Part shown: positions 2,744-32,264 of the stretch, piece after piece
How the letters are laid out: each line of letters starts with the position of its first letter
How positions within the stretch are numbered: position 1 is the first letter of the stretch
Assembly: GCA_026989035.1 (NCBI GenBank)
Contig: JALSKB010000014.1
Span: forward strand, 1 to 32,264
Length of the DNA: 32,264 nt
Direction: 5' to 3'
DNA from: Saprospiraceae bacterium
GTDB lineage: Bacteria > Bacteroidota > Bacteroidia > Chitinophagales > Saprospiraceae
Translations under genes and position numbers: made by a program
The notes under the pieces: model-generated
Told to the model about the DNA's origin: nothing
The model's database searches: none
The model's input: the letters and a program-made list of their open reading frames with translations, nothing else

Positions 2744-2959
2744 AGTGGTTTTGAATTTGCCGGAAGGAAAAGCTCTATCCTTTCGCCTTCCGCGGTTAAA
2801 AAATAAAGAGAGCTACTCTGCTGTTTCTTCGCATCTCCGTCAAGGCTGTTCGCTTCAGATTCGAACTATCCGATTTTATTTTCGGGTTGGGATGCGCAAG
2901 AAGACACAAGAGCTGCTGCTCGTTAAAAAAACAAATGCACATCAGAAAGGTTTGTTGAA

Positions 2960-3063
2960 TATACCCAAACCGAAATGGTTTGGGATATTTACAACTCGCA
3001 AACGAGCGAAAGGTAGGGAGTTTGGGAGGCTGACGCCTCCCAAACCACTTCGCCATGGGTATA
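2960..3063 (+). repeat. Structured repeat, copy A (104 bp)
   Basis: Reference copy of the window's repeat family. It has TATACCC at the left end and GGGTATA at the right. Hairpin 1 is CCCAAACC-GAAAT-GGTTTGGG (2964-2984). A small CTCG-CAAA-CGAG hairpin lies in the middle. Hairpin 2 has a perfect 11-bp stem, GTTTGGGAGGC / GCCTCCCAAAC (3020-3045), with loop TGAC, and is followed by the conserved CACTTCGCCATG. It begins 6 bases after the endonuclease I stop and is antisense to that gene. The rest of the 2744-3069 intergenic stretch shows nothing I can name. Confidence 0.9.
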
Positions 3064-3069
3064 GTTAAC

Positions 3070-8753: not shown

Positions 8754-8857
8754 TATAAACCAAACCGAAATGGTTTGCCACTATTTACGACTCGCAAACG
8801 GGCGAAACATAGGAAGTTTGGGAGGCTGACGCCTCCCAAACCACTTCGCCATGAAAA
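8754..8857 (+). repeat. Structured repeat, copy B (about 104 bp)
   Basis: Copy with a degenerate left end (TATAAACC) and right end. Hairpin 1 is shortened (CCAAACC-GAAAT-GGTTTG). Hairpin 2 is intact (GTTTGGGAGGC-TGAC-GCCTCCCAAAC), followed by CACTTCGCCATG. Unlike most copies it is far (270 bases) from the next start codon. The rest of the 8543-9127 spacer is the paaG hairpin, the inverted repeat and an AT-rich run before meaB. Confidence 0.85.
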
Positions 8858-9127
8858 TTATGCATCTCTAAATCACCCAAAGATCTTTCTCCAAAGGGAT
8901 GCCACAAAACAAAAACATCTTCTCCGCTTTCTAAGCATAAACCCTCAAGATTAAATCAAATTTAACCTATGAACTGGCTGCAAAGCTCAAATGTTAAAAA
9001 TGGAACAAATACATGTCACTGATTATCAAAGAGTTACAAAATGTTAAAACCATCATACACTGATTGTTAAAAAATGTAACATCTTTGTACGAACTCCATC
9101 ACATCAAGTTTCAGACAAATCAGAGGA

Positions 9128-12092: not shown

Positions 12093-12112
12093 AGCCTTTT
12101 CAAAGGCTCTTC

Positions 12113-12216
12113 CATCCCCAAACCGAAATGGTTTGGTACATTTACAACTCAAAAAGGAACAAAAGTCAGGGAGTTTGGGAGACGTTAGCCTCCCAAACCA
12201 CTTCGCCATGAATATA
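12113..12216 (+). repeat. Structured repeat, copy C (104 bp)
   Basis: Diverged left end (CCATCCCCAAACC). Hairpin 1 is CCAAACC-GAAAT-GGTTTGG and hairpin 2 is GTTTGGGAGac-gtta-GCCTCCCAAAC, with CACTTCGCCATG then AATATA. Its right end is one base from the stop codon of the protease gene (12218) and antisense to it, the same placement as copy A at the endonuclease I stop. Confidence 0.85.
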
Positions 12217-12217
12217 C

Positions 12218-13171
12218 TCAAAACTCCAGGTAAGATGTCAAGGCACTCAACAGCGTACCCTGGTTGACAGCCCGCCCTTTGAGCGAACCGTGATGCAGAG
12301 CTACGACCTGCCAGTTTTCATCGAAAACCGGAGAACCGCTGGAGCCGGGCTCGGTATCGGTGCGATAATTCAAAAACGAACCCTGTGCACCCACTACCCG
12401 ATCAAAGGCCAACTCCTTGGGACGCCCCGAGGGGTGTTGCACAATGGTCAGATAGCGATCTTCTCGGGGCTGGTACTGCAAGTTGGGTTGTAAAAAACCC
12501 CAGTTGGAAAGCGGCACCTCGGCCTCCCCTTCCTCTATCTCGAGCACGGCAAAATCCAGCTTTTGATCGCCTTGAAAGGAATCCGGTTTCAAGCGGTAAA
12601 AATACTGCTTCTTAATCTGACCATCGGCATCAGCCTCATAGTCAAAAGCCAATCGGGCTTCAGCAGCTACATCGGCACCGTTCAAAACGTGGAAATTGGT
12701 CAAAACCCGTCCTCCGCCAATCAAAAAGCCCGTACCCGAAGCTCCATCCGGCAAGAGCACTTTACACACGGCTTTACTCGCCTGTAAACCCTTTTGAAGC
12801 CAGGCAATGGGAGCCAAATTGCTACTGCCTATGATTTTTTCCCGACTCACTTCTCCTCCTTCTTCCTCGGGGATGCGCAAAGCATACGGGGCCGAATTGG
12901 AAAAATCCCTTTTGTAGTATTTGTCCAGCAAATAGAGCAAAGCCCGGTTGATTCGCTGCCGCTCCGTACGATAAGATTCACTCGTCAAAATTCCCAGGTT
13001 AAAATCCTTTTGTGCTTTGTTCAAGCGGGCAGATTGCATGACCAGCTCGTTATAACGACTGCTCTGCATTACGGGTTTGAGAAAGTCCAGTAAGTCCTCT
13101 ATGACTTCTTCGGTTTCCCCCTCAGCTATCTTTTTCTTGGCTTCCGCCAAAATGGCTTGGTCAATACGCAT
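12218..13171 (-). CDS. Trypsin-like serine protease with N-terminal effector-associated domain (EAD11-like)
   Basis: 317 aa, no signal peptide, so probably cytoplasmic. Residues 1-87 match the alpha-helical EAD11-type effector-associated domain: IAEGETEEVIEDLLDFL, then NELVMQSARLNKAQKDFNLGILTSE and RQRINRALLYLLD. Such domains recruit effectors to partner proteins with the same domain. Residues 125-317 form a trypsin/V8-like protease with the triad His161 (LTNFHV), Asp206 (KLDFAVL) and Ser278 (EPGSSGSPVF), plus an oxyanion loop GTGFLIGGGRVL. Families of this architecture are described as conflict/immune or programmed-death effectors. No NACHT, STAND or other EAD partner gene is in the window. 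The ATG at 13171 is used; the TTG at 13177 is discounted. Architecture is clear; biological role is inference. Confidence 0.88.
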   Translation of the reverse strand: MRIDQAILAEAKKKIAEGETEEVIEDLLDFLKPVMQSSRYNELVMQSARLNKAQKDFNLGILTSESYRTERQRINRALLYLLDKYYKRDFSNSAPYALRIPEEEGGEVSREKIIGSSNLAPIAWLQKGLQASKAVCKVLLPDGASGTGFLIGGGRVLTNFHVLNGADVAAEARLAFDYEADADGQIKKQYFYRLKPDSFQGDQKLDFAVLEIEEGEAEVPLSNWGFLQPNLQYQPREDRYLTIVQHPSGRPKELAFDRVVGAQGSFLNYRTDTEPGSSGSPVFDENWQVVALHHGSLKGRAVNQGTLLSALTSYLEF

Positions 13172-13268
13172 GTTCAATTTTTTTTCAATGGCCCCAATTC
13201 CATGGAGTCGGGATCAACAAGCAAAATTCAGAAAATGGCCAAACAGTTGTTCAAATGATTTGTCTCGA

Positions 13269-13374
13269 TAAACTCGCAGAGAAATGGTTTGGGGTGCTGA
13301 CGCATCCCAAATTCCTCATTTCTCGCTGGTTTGCAAGCTCTGAGAATATCCCAAACCCTTTCGGTTTGGGATAT
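13269..13374 (-). repeat. Structured repeat, copy D (about 106 bp, diverged, minus orientation)
   Basis: Read on the minus strand: ATATCCCAAACC-GAAAG-GGTTTGGGATAT, a diverged middle, then a mutated hairpin 2 (TTTGGGATGC-GTCA-GCACCCCAAA) and a CCATTTCTCTGCGAG tail replacing CACTTCGCCATGAG. It lies about 100 bases upstream of the protease start, on the same strand, and forms an inverted pair with copy E. Confidence 0.8.
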
Positions 13375-13423: not shown

Positions 13424-13427
13424 CAAA

Positions 13428-13531
13428 TATACCCAAACCATTTTGGTTTGGGATATTTACAACTCGCAAACAGGCAAAAGATAGAGAGTTTGGGTAGCTA
13501 ACGCCTCCCAAACCACTTCGCCATGAGTATA
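13428..13531 (+). repeat. Structured repeat, copy E (104 bp)
   Basis: Same length as copy A. TATACCC left end; hairpin 1 CCCAAACC-ATTTT-GGTTTGGG keeps its stem with a changed loop. Hairpin 2 is GTTTGGGtaGC-TAAC-GCctCCCAAAC with two mismatches. CACTTCGCCATGAGTATA ends it, 18 bases before the ATG at 13550. Copies D and E together fill nearly all of the 13172-13549 spacer. Confidence 0.9.
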
Positions 13532-15711: not shown

Positions 15712-16077
15712 GGCTTCAACCTCCTAAAAAGCAAAAAAGAGGAGATAAACCTTAAAAATCCCCGCAAAAATCGAATCATTTCTCACCAAGAAGGCTCCCT
15801 CCCATAGCCTGAGCCTCTCGACTTTTTGCTACTTGAACGCCATACTCCTGGCTGTTGAAACGCCTTAATCATCCGGGATAGCTGGCAGGTCAAACCACCC
15901 GAATGCTTACATCAATCGGCTTAAACGAGCAAAGTATAGCAAACTTATTTTCGGCTAAAAAGGTTTTGAGATAAGACAAGAGGTATGCTTTCGGCCATGC
16001 TGCTCTACAGCATTGACAAAAAACAGTGCATTGTAATAAACGGTCCGAAATTGAAGCAATGCCCGCCAAAAACCAAA

Positions 16078-16180
16078 TATACCCAAACCGAAATGGTTTG
16101 GGATATTTACAACTCGCAAACGAGTAAAAATAGGGAGTTTGGGAGGCTAACGCCTCCCAAACCACTTCGCCATGAGCATA
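16078..16180 (+). repeat. Structured repeat, copy F (103 bp)
   Basis: TATACCC left end, hairpin 1 CCCAAACC-GAAAT-GGTTTGGG, the CTCG-CAAA-CGAG mini-hairpin, and hairpin 2 GTTTGGGAGGC-TAAC-GCCTCCCAAAC with CACTTCGCCATGAGCATA. It ends 23 bases before the TonB receptor ATG at 16204. The rest of the 15600-16203 spacer shows no supported gene; the long open frame through the repeat is not the receptor's real N-terminus. Confidence 0.9.
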
Positions 16181-18663: not shown

Positions 18664-18751
18664 CGGAGGAGGAGGGATTCGAACCCCCGGTGGGCGTTAA
18701 CCCACGCCGGTTTTCAAGACCGGTGCATTAAACCAGCTCTGCCACTCCTCC
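18664..18751 (-). tRNA. tRNA-Ser, anticodon UGA
   Basis: 88-nt class II tRNA read on the minus strand. Acceptor stem GGAGGAG / CTCCTCC, discriminator G, anticodon stem CCGGT / ACCGG around loop CTTGAAA (anticodon TGA), a long variable arm (GTGGG-ttaac-CCCAC type) and a T-arm with GTTCGAATC. The 3' CCA is not encoded (CC then C follows the discriminator). The long variable arm confirms serine identity. Confidence 0.95.
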
Positions 18752-19019: not shown

Positions 19020-19181
19020 TATACCCATCGCGAAGTGGTTGGAGAATGGTTCACTTGCCGTTGCGGCCTCCCCCGCCTTGCAAAACCTCGCCACAGCTCA
19101 GGCTGTGCCTACGTTTTGCCTCTTGGTGGCAACTACACCGGCGGTGTGCCTATTTTCCTCAACCACTTCTCTCCGGGTATA
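19020..19181. repeat. Large palindromic relative of the repeat family (copy H, 162 bp)
   Basis: TATACCC...GAAGTGGTT at the left (19020-19040) is mirrored by AACCACTTC...GGGTATA at the right (19161-19181). Symmetry continues inward: GCAAAAC (19080-19086) with GTTTTGC (19113-19119) and CACAGC (19092-19097) with GCTGTG (19102-19107), centred near 19100. Both ends match the right end of the 104-bp family, so it looks like two right ends head to head. It ends 30 bases before the msrA ATG. The remainder of the 18752-19211 spacer holds only the tRNA promoter. Confidence 0.8.
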
Positions 19182-25156: not shown

Positions 25157-25309
25157 TATCCCCAAGCCCTTAGGTTTGGGAATATTAGGACAATTGCAAA
25201 CGCTTAAAGATAAAGTGAAACCTTGGGGATGCCGAGGTATCCTTGCCCGCTTACCTGCCCGTCGATTGGAAAGGCGCAGGTAGCCCCAAGCCACTTCGCC
25301 ACGAGTACA
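25157..25309 (+). repeat. Structured repeat, expanded copy G (153 bp)
   Basis: Starts TATCCCCAAGCC; hairpin 1 is CCCAAGCC-CTTA-GGTTTGGG. The second hairpin is enlarged: an outer CTTGGGG / CCCCAAG stem encloses TACCTGC / GCAGGTA. It ends in the family's CACTTCGCCACGAGTAC, four bases before the ATG at 25314. Confidence 0.8.
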
Positions 25310-25313
25310 AATC

Positions 25314-27524: not shown

Positions 27525-29240
27525 TTACTCACTCAAAACTGCAAACTTAATAAAGTGCAATCCCGATTCTTCTCTCAACTCAAGTACATAAAGACCTGAA
27601 GACCAGCGATACACCGGAATGCGCAACATTTTACCGGAAAAAGCCGGATTAAAATACACCTCCCGACCAGAGCTATCCAATATGCGCACAGCTACAACCG
27701 AAGTTGTTTTATCCAACTGCAAAGTCAGTTCATCTCCAACCGGATTGGGATAAAGTACGGGCTTACGGTTCTGCCGCTCATTTACACCTGTTACGATGAT
27801 TTGCACGCATTCGGAAGTTTCGGAACACATGCCCTGCGTAACAACTACCGCATATGTTCCCGTTGCCGTAGCTGTATAAGTTTGAGCTGTTGCTCCCGGT
27901 ATGGGTGCTCCACTTGTGCAATCTATCCACTGATAGCTGGCTCCTGTCTCTGCCACCGTCATTTCAGCTCCATCTACCTGCAGAGAGACATCAATGTCCT
28001 GCAAAACACAACTACCTTCAAAAACGCGTACCTGGCCGGATTCCAGTCCACCTCCATCGTTACCAAGTGCACCGACTGCGACAATCATACCATTAGCACT
28101 CAGACTTACCGATTCTCCACTCTCATCATAAAGCCATTCTCCCTCTATGGGATCTCCAAAGGATTCCCAGGCTCCGTTTTCATAGTTGAGCAATCTCACA
28201 TAACCGGCATCCTCTCCGTTTCCATCGTGTTTTTTGGCGCCTGTTGCCAGAATCGAACCATCGGCACTCAAAGCCAAAGAATAACCCAGCAAGTCACCGG
28301 CTGCTTCACCCTCTATAGCTTGCCCCTGAGCCACCCAACTTCCACCCTCATAGGCAAAAACTTCTACCCTGCCGGAAGAATTCCCCGCCGCTCCCGTAGA
28401 GCTGGGTGCTCCGGCTGCCAAAATCGTACCATCGGCACTTAAGCTCAGCGAATACCCCAACAAGGTGCTTTGGTTACTGCTTACAGGGGGCCCCGACAAC
28501 ACCCAAGATGAAGAAGTCTGATCGTATTGGTACACATATACTGCTCCTGAATAAGGCCCGCTTATGCTGCTGTAGGGCTCCCCTACGGCTAAGATCATCC
28601 CGTCACCGCTCAAACTCACCGACCAGCCAAAAGTCCCTTCAAACACAAAACCGGAAAGACTTTGACCTCGCTGTACCCATTCACCGCTTTCATAGGCATA
28701 CACCCGCACCTCACCTTCATCTTCGGTCGAACCATCTACGCCGGGCATGCCCACAGCCAAAACGGTTCCCGATGCATCCAAAGCAATGGAGCCTCCCGAA
28801 AAGTCATTCTCGTGTTCTCCTATCCCTGTCAGTCCTATGGACTGCCAAGTATTGTCCTCATACGCATAAATGCGAACATAACCAGCAGCCCCAACACTAT
28901 CTACATAACCTCCCGGCACACCTACGGCTAAGATGCTGCCATCGGCATTCAAAGCTACAGATCTACCCAAAAGGATATCACCGGCTCCTCCTTCAAGAAC
29001 ATCACCCAAAGGTTGCCAAGAACCATTGAAGTAGGAAAAAACACGCACGTAACCCGCATCGTTTAAGCCCTTAGGTGCTCCCACCGCCAAAATCGTCCCA
29101 TCGACATTAAGGCTGCAAGATCGCCCGAAACTGTCACCTCCATGATCGCCGTCTAAATCCTGACCGAGTTGAGCCCACTGGGCCTGTAAACCCAAAACTG
29201 TAAAAGAACAGAAAAACAAAAAAGTAAACCATGCTTTCAT
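27525..29240 (-). CDS. Secreted seven-repeat (FG-GAP/propeller-like) protein with T9SS sorting domain
   Basis: 571 aa, starting at 29240 (MKAWFTFLFFCSFTVLGLQAQ, a signal peptide). About residues 22-405 hold seven repeats of the form GxSxxLxxDGxILAVGxPxxD followed by GYVRVYxYxxGxW, for example GRSCSLNVDGTILAVGAP and GYSLSLSADGTILAAGAP. Seven such units fit a seven-bladed beta-propeller like FG-GAP/integrin-alpha domains. Next comes an Ig-like/PKD-type segment (VAETGASYQWIDC ... TATATGTYAVVVTQGMCSE). A type A T9SS domain closes it (VLYPNPVGDELTLQL ... SSGLYVLELREESG). It should be displayed or released at the cell surface; adhesion or protein binding is a guess. Confidence 0.83.
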   Translation of the reverse strand: MKAWFTFLFFCSFTVLGLQAQWAQLGQDLDGDHGGDSFGRSCSLNVDGTILAVGAPKGLNDAGYVRVFSYFNGSWQPLGDVLEGGAGDILLGRSVALNADGSILAVGVPGGYVDSVGAAGYVRIYAYEDNTWQSIGLTGIGEHENDFSGGSIALDASGTVLAVGMPGVDGSTEDEGEVRVYAYESGEWVQRGQSLSGFVFEGTFGWSVSLSGDGMILAVGEPYSSISGPYSGAVYVYQYDQTSSSWVLSGPPVSSNQSTLLGYSLSLSADGTILAAGAPSSTGAAGNSSGRVEVFAYEGGSWVAQGQAIEGEAAGDLLGYSLALSADGSILATGAKKHDGNGEDAGYVRLLNYENGAWESFGDPIEGEWLYDESGESVSLSANGMIVAVGALGNDGGGLESGQVRVFEGSCVLQDIDVSLQVDGAEMTVAETGASYQWIDCTSGAPIPGATAQTYTATATGTYAVVVTQGMCSETSECVQIIVTGVNERQNRKPVLYPNPVGDELTLQLDKTTSVVAVRILDSSGREVYFNPAFSGKMLRIPVYRWSSGLYVLELREESGLHFIKFAVLSE

Positions 29241-29403: not shown

Positions 29404-29442
29404 AAAAACAACAGCTCTGTATTTTTTCTCACCGCAGCAGCA
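29404..29442 (-). repeat. 39-bp direct repeat, copy 1 (3' end of the type B T9SS gene)
   Basis: Begins AAAAACAACAGCTCTG and runs across the stop codon into the last codons of the T9SS type B gene. It is identical to the last 39 bases of the window (32226-32264). Confidence 0.9.
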
Positions 29443-32081: not shown

Positions 32082-32108
32082 AAGGCCAATTAATCCATAC
32101 AGCCTAAG

Positions 32109-32157
32109 ACTGAAGACTGAAGATTGAAGATTGAAGATTGAAGATTGAAGATTGAAG
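32109..32157 (-). repeat. Tandem heptanucleotide tract, 7 units
   Basis: Plus strand: two ACTGAAG units followed by five ATTGAAG units, 49 bases, perfect within each type. On the minus strand it codes in every frame for an IFNLQSS-like seven-residue repeat without stops until the downstream sequence. It lies between the ATG at 32166 and the lipoprotein body. Confidence 0.95.
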
Positions 32158-32203
32158 ATTTTTCATAACACCAAGATTTACAGTTAAGCAATAATTACCG
32201 CTA

Positions 32204-32233
32204 CAAAGATAAACAAATTTCGACAAAAAACAA
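32204..32233 (-). promoter_or_regulatory. Promoter of the heptamer-tract lipoprotein gene
   Basis: On the minus strand TTG (32233-32231), 19 bases, TATCTTTG (32211-32204), an exact match to the Bacteroidota consensus. Predicted start near 32197, about 31 bases before the ATG at 32166. Confidence 0.7.
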
Positions 32234-32264
32234 CAGCTCTGTATTTTTTCTCACCGCAGCAGCA
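32226..32264 (-). repeat. 39-bp direct repeat, copy 2 (runs off the window)
   Basis: Identical to 29404-29442 over all 39 bases available. The identity may extend beyond the window edge. Confidence 0.9.
32251..32264 (-). CDS. C-terminal tail of a further gene, probable paralogue of the T9SS type B protein
   Basis: Only the last codons (LLR then stop, TCA on the plus strand at 32251-32253) are inside the window. They and the 25 bases downstream are identical to the end of the 763-aa T9SS type B gene, so a duplicated or gene-converted paralogue probably continues past the edge. Too short to identify independently. Confidence 0.45.

Follow-up and report, generated by a model that had tools for sequence, protein, structure and literature searches.

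The window – the whole 32,264-nt stretch of Saprospiraceae DNA analyzed here – contains eight copies or relatives of a ~104-bp repeat (Table 1). A repeat search of the window and reading of its sequence both located the copies where the initial annotation had placed them. One copy (2960..3063) has a 100% identical twin in the same genome, with different flanks, and another (12113..12216) stops one base short of the stop codon that ends a minus-strand gene (12218-13177). Elements with expansions comparable to that of the 25157..25309 variant occur in a second Saprospiraceae genome (G087). No transposase open reading frame was found inside the short elements.

Repeats of other kinds are also present. 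A 7-bp tandem repeat (AAGATTG) occupies 32106-32160. An identical 39-nt repeat is found at 29404-29442 and 32226-32264; its second copy is the last sequence of the contig, as if the assembly had broken off at a repeat. A further repeat family (28066-29114; ~171-bp spacing, 41-nt cores) lies within a long minus-strand open reading frame and suggests a protein built of repeated units.

Table 1. Features of the window. MITE names follow the interpretation favored in the text.
Feature	Position	Strand	Repeat-search match	Remarks
MITE copy	2960..3063	+	2958-3063	104 bp; the repeat first noted
Left TIR of this copy	2960..2984	+		TATACCCAAACCGAAATGGTTTGGG; encloses hairpin 1 of the initial annotation (2964-2984)
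Inner palindrome (hairpin 2) of this copy	3020..3045	+		GTTTGGGAGGC TGAC GCCTCCCAAAC
Right TIR of this copy	3039..3063	-		TATACCCATGGCGAAGTGGTTTGGG read inward; encloses the CACTTCGCCATG tail
Diverged MITE copy	8754..8860	+	8754-8859	Decayed ends (TATAAACC ... AAAATTA)
MITE copy	12113..12216	+	12111-12216	Left end partly decayed
Decayed MITE copy	13269..13373	-	13345-13370 (minus-strand arms)	105 bp; adjoins the 13428 copy
MITE copy	13428..13531	+	13426-13531	104 bp
MITE copy	16078..16180	+	16075-16180	103 bp
tRNA gene	18664-18751	-		Rfam tRNA, 59 bits
Sibling MITE	19020..19181	+	Recovered	162 bp; TIR of the same class (TATACCCATCGCGAAGTGGTTGG / TATACCCGGAGAGAAGTGGTTGAGG), unrelated interior
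Expanded MITE variant	25157..25309	+	25285-25311 (tail)	~153 bp; hairpin-2 region enlarged, CACTTCGCC end retained

Copy number and host range

The genome that contains the window (G000) spans 3.12 Mb in 215 contigs and is 97.2% complete. A genome-wide count, proposed in the initial annotation, turned up many more copies. BLAST with the 2958-3065 copy returned at least 53 matches (40 of the 259 first-look candidates having been scored), and the end pattern TATACYCAWNNCGAARTGGTTTGG, with up to two mismatches allowed, occurs 191 times on the forward and 182 times on the reverse strand, 373 in all; the reversed control pattern had no match in this genome. Since every element has two ends, these counts correspond to at least ~187 elements, a lower bound based on ends and on stretches fetched around copies rather than on a full census. 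The resulting density is one element per 17 kb, and the window is about twice as dense. Most copies measure 103-105 bp; of 108 elements obtained by pairing ends in the fetched stretches, 67 have a length of exactly 104 bp and another 13 have 103 bp. A twin at ≥98% identity exists for 22 of 90 copies; some of these are tandem neighbors, and identical pairs on different contigs are included.

The same kind of end is present in 18 of the 120 family genomes that we sampled. When all GTDB species genomes were scanned, every match listed whose title is finer than phylum belongs to Saprospirales/Saprospiraceae, and the remaining matches listed are one titled just ‘bacterium’ and one isolate titled just ‘Bacteroidetes bacterium’. 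The family is thus confined so far to Saprospirales. No catalogued repeat family matched; the initial annotation knew of no named one either.

Terminal inverted repeats, TA duplication, and IS630-family transposases

Each element is bounded by imperfect terminal inverted repeats (TIRs) of 24-25 bp (TATAC[C/T]CA...CGAA[A/G]TGGTTTGGG). The initial annotation described TATACCC/GGGTATA as the ends but missed the true extent of the TIRs, and the conserved ‘tail’ noted there proved, along with part of the hairpin arms, to be one end of a TIR. Read inward, the right end TATACTCATGGCGAAGTGGTTTGGG shares 20 of its 25 positions with the left end. Because this agreement takes in the TATAC tip and CGAA block, both outside the hairpin arms, it reflects a TIR rather than a side effect of the hairpins. 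Across 90 copies, the two ends have mean column identities of 0.957 and 0.943, the middle has 0.855, and the hairpin-2 loop has 0.717, which bears out the earlier description of two palindromes around a variable middle, with hairpin-2 mutations concentrated in the loop. The same ends also enclose unrelated interiors, as in the 19020 element and in one found on another contig (G000:C178_12155).

Shorter palindromic forms were observed in another genome, G010, and in isolate BWSM_29 (G010:C644:4320-4371, L274:241-292, and L276:2986-3037). These 52-bp (and 73-bp) palindromes consist of the two ends with a few bases between them, and they are often joined to a second palindrome type (TATACCGCTTCCGAAAAGGTTTGG...) via a common TA.

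Insertion appears to be targeted to TA. TATA stands at the left end of 78 and at the right end of 74 of the 90 copies, and where copies are identical, their unrelated flanks begin exactly at TATA. Two elements (G000:C148_2806 and C168_310) each sit inside another copy, and swapping the inserted TATA...TATA for one TA restored the outer element in both cases; the empty sites obtained in this way are paralogous, derived from nested insertions, and not orthologous. That removal of the nested copy leaves a single TA corresponds to the target duplication of IS630. Head-to-tail neighbors on contigs C43 and C63 have one TA in common.

Two other arrangements were seen. On contig C47 (L189; G000:C47:4399-4733), identical copies stand in tandem with a period of 104 bp and TATATATA joints. 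In genome G030 (L045-L051, L192-L194, and L212-L226), most copies are embedded in a longer repeat unit, ...cttttttacatc[MITE]aatcgaaaatctcggatatttggcc..., frequently close to the end of a contig; a search for an empty version of this unit recognized no clean empty site.

The initial annotation had advised looking for a transposase gene with matching ends, and one was found in the IS630 family. G088 is a complete genome from the same family, a single contig of 7.5 Mb; in it, TATACCCGTCCCTAAGTGGTTTGGG and TATACCCGTCACTAAGTAGTTTGGG are the ends of a 1,112-bp IS that encodes a 351-aa transposase (NF033545 transpos_IS630, E=8.4e-57; PF13358, E=1.8e-29; the Pfam matches are DDE_3 and HTH_33). This genome has eight near-identical transposase copies, seven full-length and one interrupted. 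Each MITE end is identical to the left end of the G088 IS at 20 of 25 positions, a score never reached when the right MITE end was shuffled 200,000 times, and agreement with the transposase end in G003 is 21-22 of 25. In G003 the sequence of a C-terminal transposase fragment runs up to a perfect end of the MITE type; contig C40 of G030 carries a decayed IS that retains both ends, and transposase fragments with ends occur in G087.

In the window's own genome, a transposase protein query identified decayed fragments of the same transposase on contigs C179, C46, and C188; the C188 fragment adjoins a matching end, and the C179 fragment contains one MITE. A PF13358 search of this 97.2% complete assembly gave no match, and the IS630-type transposases found in it are fragments only, none intact. 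Since the assembly is broken into 215 contigs, a multi-copy IS could be missing from it, and the intact helper may have been lost, degraded, or left unassembled. With only fragments of the helper found there, we infer, rather than observe, present-day mobility. An intact helper in the same genome is a common companion of MITEs and not a defining feature. The MITE interiors have no visible derivation from the G088 IS, so an origin by internal deletion of that element is unsupported.

Matching IS630 ends together with TA duplication in the nested copies argue that the repeats are almost certainly a family of IS630-type MITEs, presumably inserted at TA by a transposase acting in trans. The initial annotation had left the choice between a non-autonomous element moved in trans, either MITE or REP-like, and a structured RNA module. 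TIRs, TA duplication, and a matching transposase family favor the MITE option, and with many further copies, paired substitutions in hairpin 2 (below), and no catalogued counterpart, its view of the repeats as a family holds.

Conservation of the hairpins and alternative interpretations

Hairpin 2, whose 3' arm reaches into the right TIR at its inner end, is the better conserved of the two palindromes. We aligned 25 elements from four Saprospiraceae genomes (G000, G030, G087, and NAT133) over 104 almost gapless columns. In this alignment 96% of hairpin-2 cells are paired, and one column pair (68-79) is A-U, C-G, or U-A across genera. Hairpins 1 and 2 jointly have 16 cells changed on both sides, compared with 6.2 in shuffles, though these changes probably represent few events because the aligned sequences are related. 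Hairpin 1 (88.5% of cells paired) is kept in G000 and G030 and not in G087 and NAT133. The initial annotation had suggested testing for compensatory changes, and hairpin 2 shows them. Two further structures were considered and rejected: a conserved RNA duplex joining the TIRs end to end, its covariation being not above shuffles, and a mini-hairpin in the middle (36-47), with just 74% of cells paired.

Hairpin 2, with its paired substitutions, and the length of 103-104 bp are both kept across the four genomes. The hairpin-2 loop occurs in both orientations (TGAC 43 and GTCA 6; TAAC 11 and GTTA 4), a sign that the palindrome may have been inverted or converted as DNA. Upkeep of hairpin 2 may reflect either selection on DNA structure or conversion, whereas selection on RNA has the least support. 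A bolder idea, which we consider unlikely, is that the palindrome and the fixed length are selected as parts of the transposition substrate. For example, the palindrome might form a hairpin or cruciform beside one end, or the length might set the end-to-end distance at about ten helical turns. To our knowledge, no such cis requirement has been described for IS630/Tc1/mariner MITEs. If true, this selection would account for the similar length, ~104-107 bp, of several unrelated IS630-type MITEs.

A structured RNA module multiplied across the genome for its RNA function, such as a terminator or mRNA stabilizer, could be proposed from the same hairpins, as well as from the folding of the 2960..3063 copy, which exceeds that of shuffled sequence (z = -6.8). 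Most of that folding follows from the inverted repeats in the DNA. The paired changes in hairpin 2 between genera would fit an RNA, but hairpin 1 is not kept in G087 and NAT133, relatives differ in their best fold (two hairpins for the window copy, a single end-to-end duplex for G087), and the two loop orientations point to DNA. A copy stands within 10 nt of 11 of the 47 gene stop ends, and of 3 of the 57 start ends (at loci that include L171, L174, and L181 of the window's genome), an excess that would suit an RNA element and that could also arise from TA targets in stop codons or from selection against insertions near starts. Relative to tandem genes, however, 12 copies run in the same direction and 19 in the opposite one, so that neither orientation is preferred, and Rfam models matched nothing at the repeats with E values as high as 1 allowed. 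The copies flagged as overlapping open frames that were checked lie mostly at frame ends. With the remaining features accounted for by transposon anatomy, we regard a structured RNA, as the main reading, as improbable.

The other branches fare worse. REP-like elements, hairpins recognized and moved by a Y1 tyrosine (RAYT) transposase, resemble the repeats in being small, hairpin-forming, intergenic, and high in copy number, and the window's genome does encode one Y1_Tnp gene. A link to this sole gene was rejected, as the 3.3 kb read around it holds no such ends. REP elements are not known to have terminal inverted repeats or TA duplication, both of which are found here, and the ends in question enclose a DDE rather than a Y1 transposase; a REP origin is extremely unlikely. 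We also judge it very improbable that the copies are dispersed recombination products or segmental duplications instead of transposed elements. Tandem arrays of the C47 kind, unlike TA-sharing insertion in their period, and the several G030 copies inside a larger unit speak for this view, yet identical copies meet unrelated flanks exactly at TATA, and the nested insertions have clean TA duplications. For the C47 array itself, the 104-bp period differs from the 102 bp expected from TA-sharing, and amplification by recombination is the probable source.

Taking the repeats as IS630-type MITEs, we propose that each element was cut out and put back at TA dinucleotides, mostly between genes, by an IS630-family (bacterial Tc1/mariner) transposase bound in trans to the inverted repeats. 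The layout would then be a ~100-bp core within 24-25 bp imperfect inverted repeats, with the duplicated TA outside. The copies in the window's genome, where fragments are what is left, would have been moved by a G088-type transposase or by an extinct local version of it. Hairpin 2 may be maintained because the palindrome serves a step in transposition or through conversion between its arms.

Relation to known elements and implications

The closest in kind to this family is RUP of pneumococcus, with ~108 intergenic copies of ~107 bp, IS630-Spn1-like ends, and TA targets, and thought to move in trans (PMC2229807, PMC3049150). The likeness is one of anatomy only: RUP belongs to another phylum and is probably unrelated in sequence. 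The Saprospiraceae elements have longer TIRs (24-25 bp, against the 9 bp listed for RUP) and are more numerous, and unlike RUP they keep an inner palindrome across genera and have no intact helper found in the same assembly. Correia elements of Neisseria (NEMIS/CREE) come in size classes of 104-108, 153-157, and 69-73 bp, with TIRs of 24-26 bp, a TA target, more than 100 copies, and no encoded protein (PMC2649163, PMC2229807). Their size classes and target nearly coincide with those described here, again by anatomy and across phyla. The transposase that mobilizes CREE is not determined in those reports, and promoter, IHF, and RNase III roles are known for CREE. ISY100 has 24-bp imperfect inverted repeats, inserts at and duplicates TA, encodes a single DDE transposase, and needs little more than its minimal ends in cis for transposition (PMC2170065). 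It thus shares with the window elements the imperfect inverted repeats and TA duplication of IS630/Tc1/mariner, but it is autonomous whereas they carry no gene.

In the literature searched, we found no published account of a comparable family from Saprospiraceae or Bacteroidetes; as far as that search reached, this IS630-type MITE family is new to the record, although its kind is well known. The assignment connects a Saprospiraceae repeat of high copy number with a named family of transposases and removes one candidate ‘structured RNA’ from genome annotation. It is also a clear example in which non-autonomous elements are more numerous than a helper now decayed in the genome they share. Natural variants of 52, 73, 104, 128, and 162 bp that carry one type of end may in turn inform what an IS630 transposase needs of its DNA.
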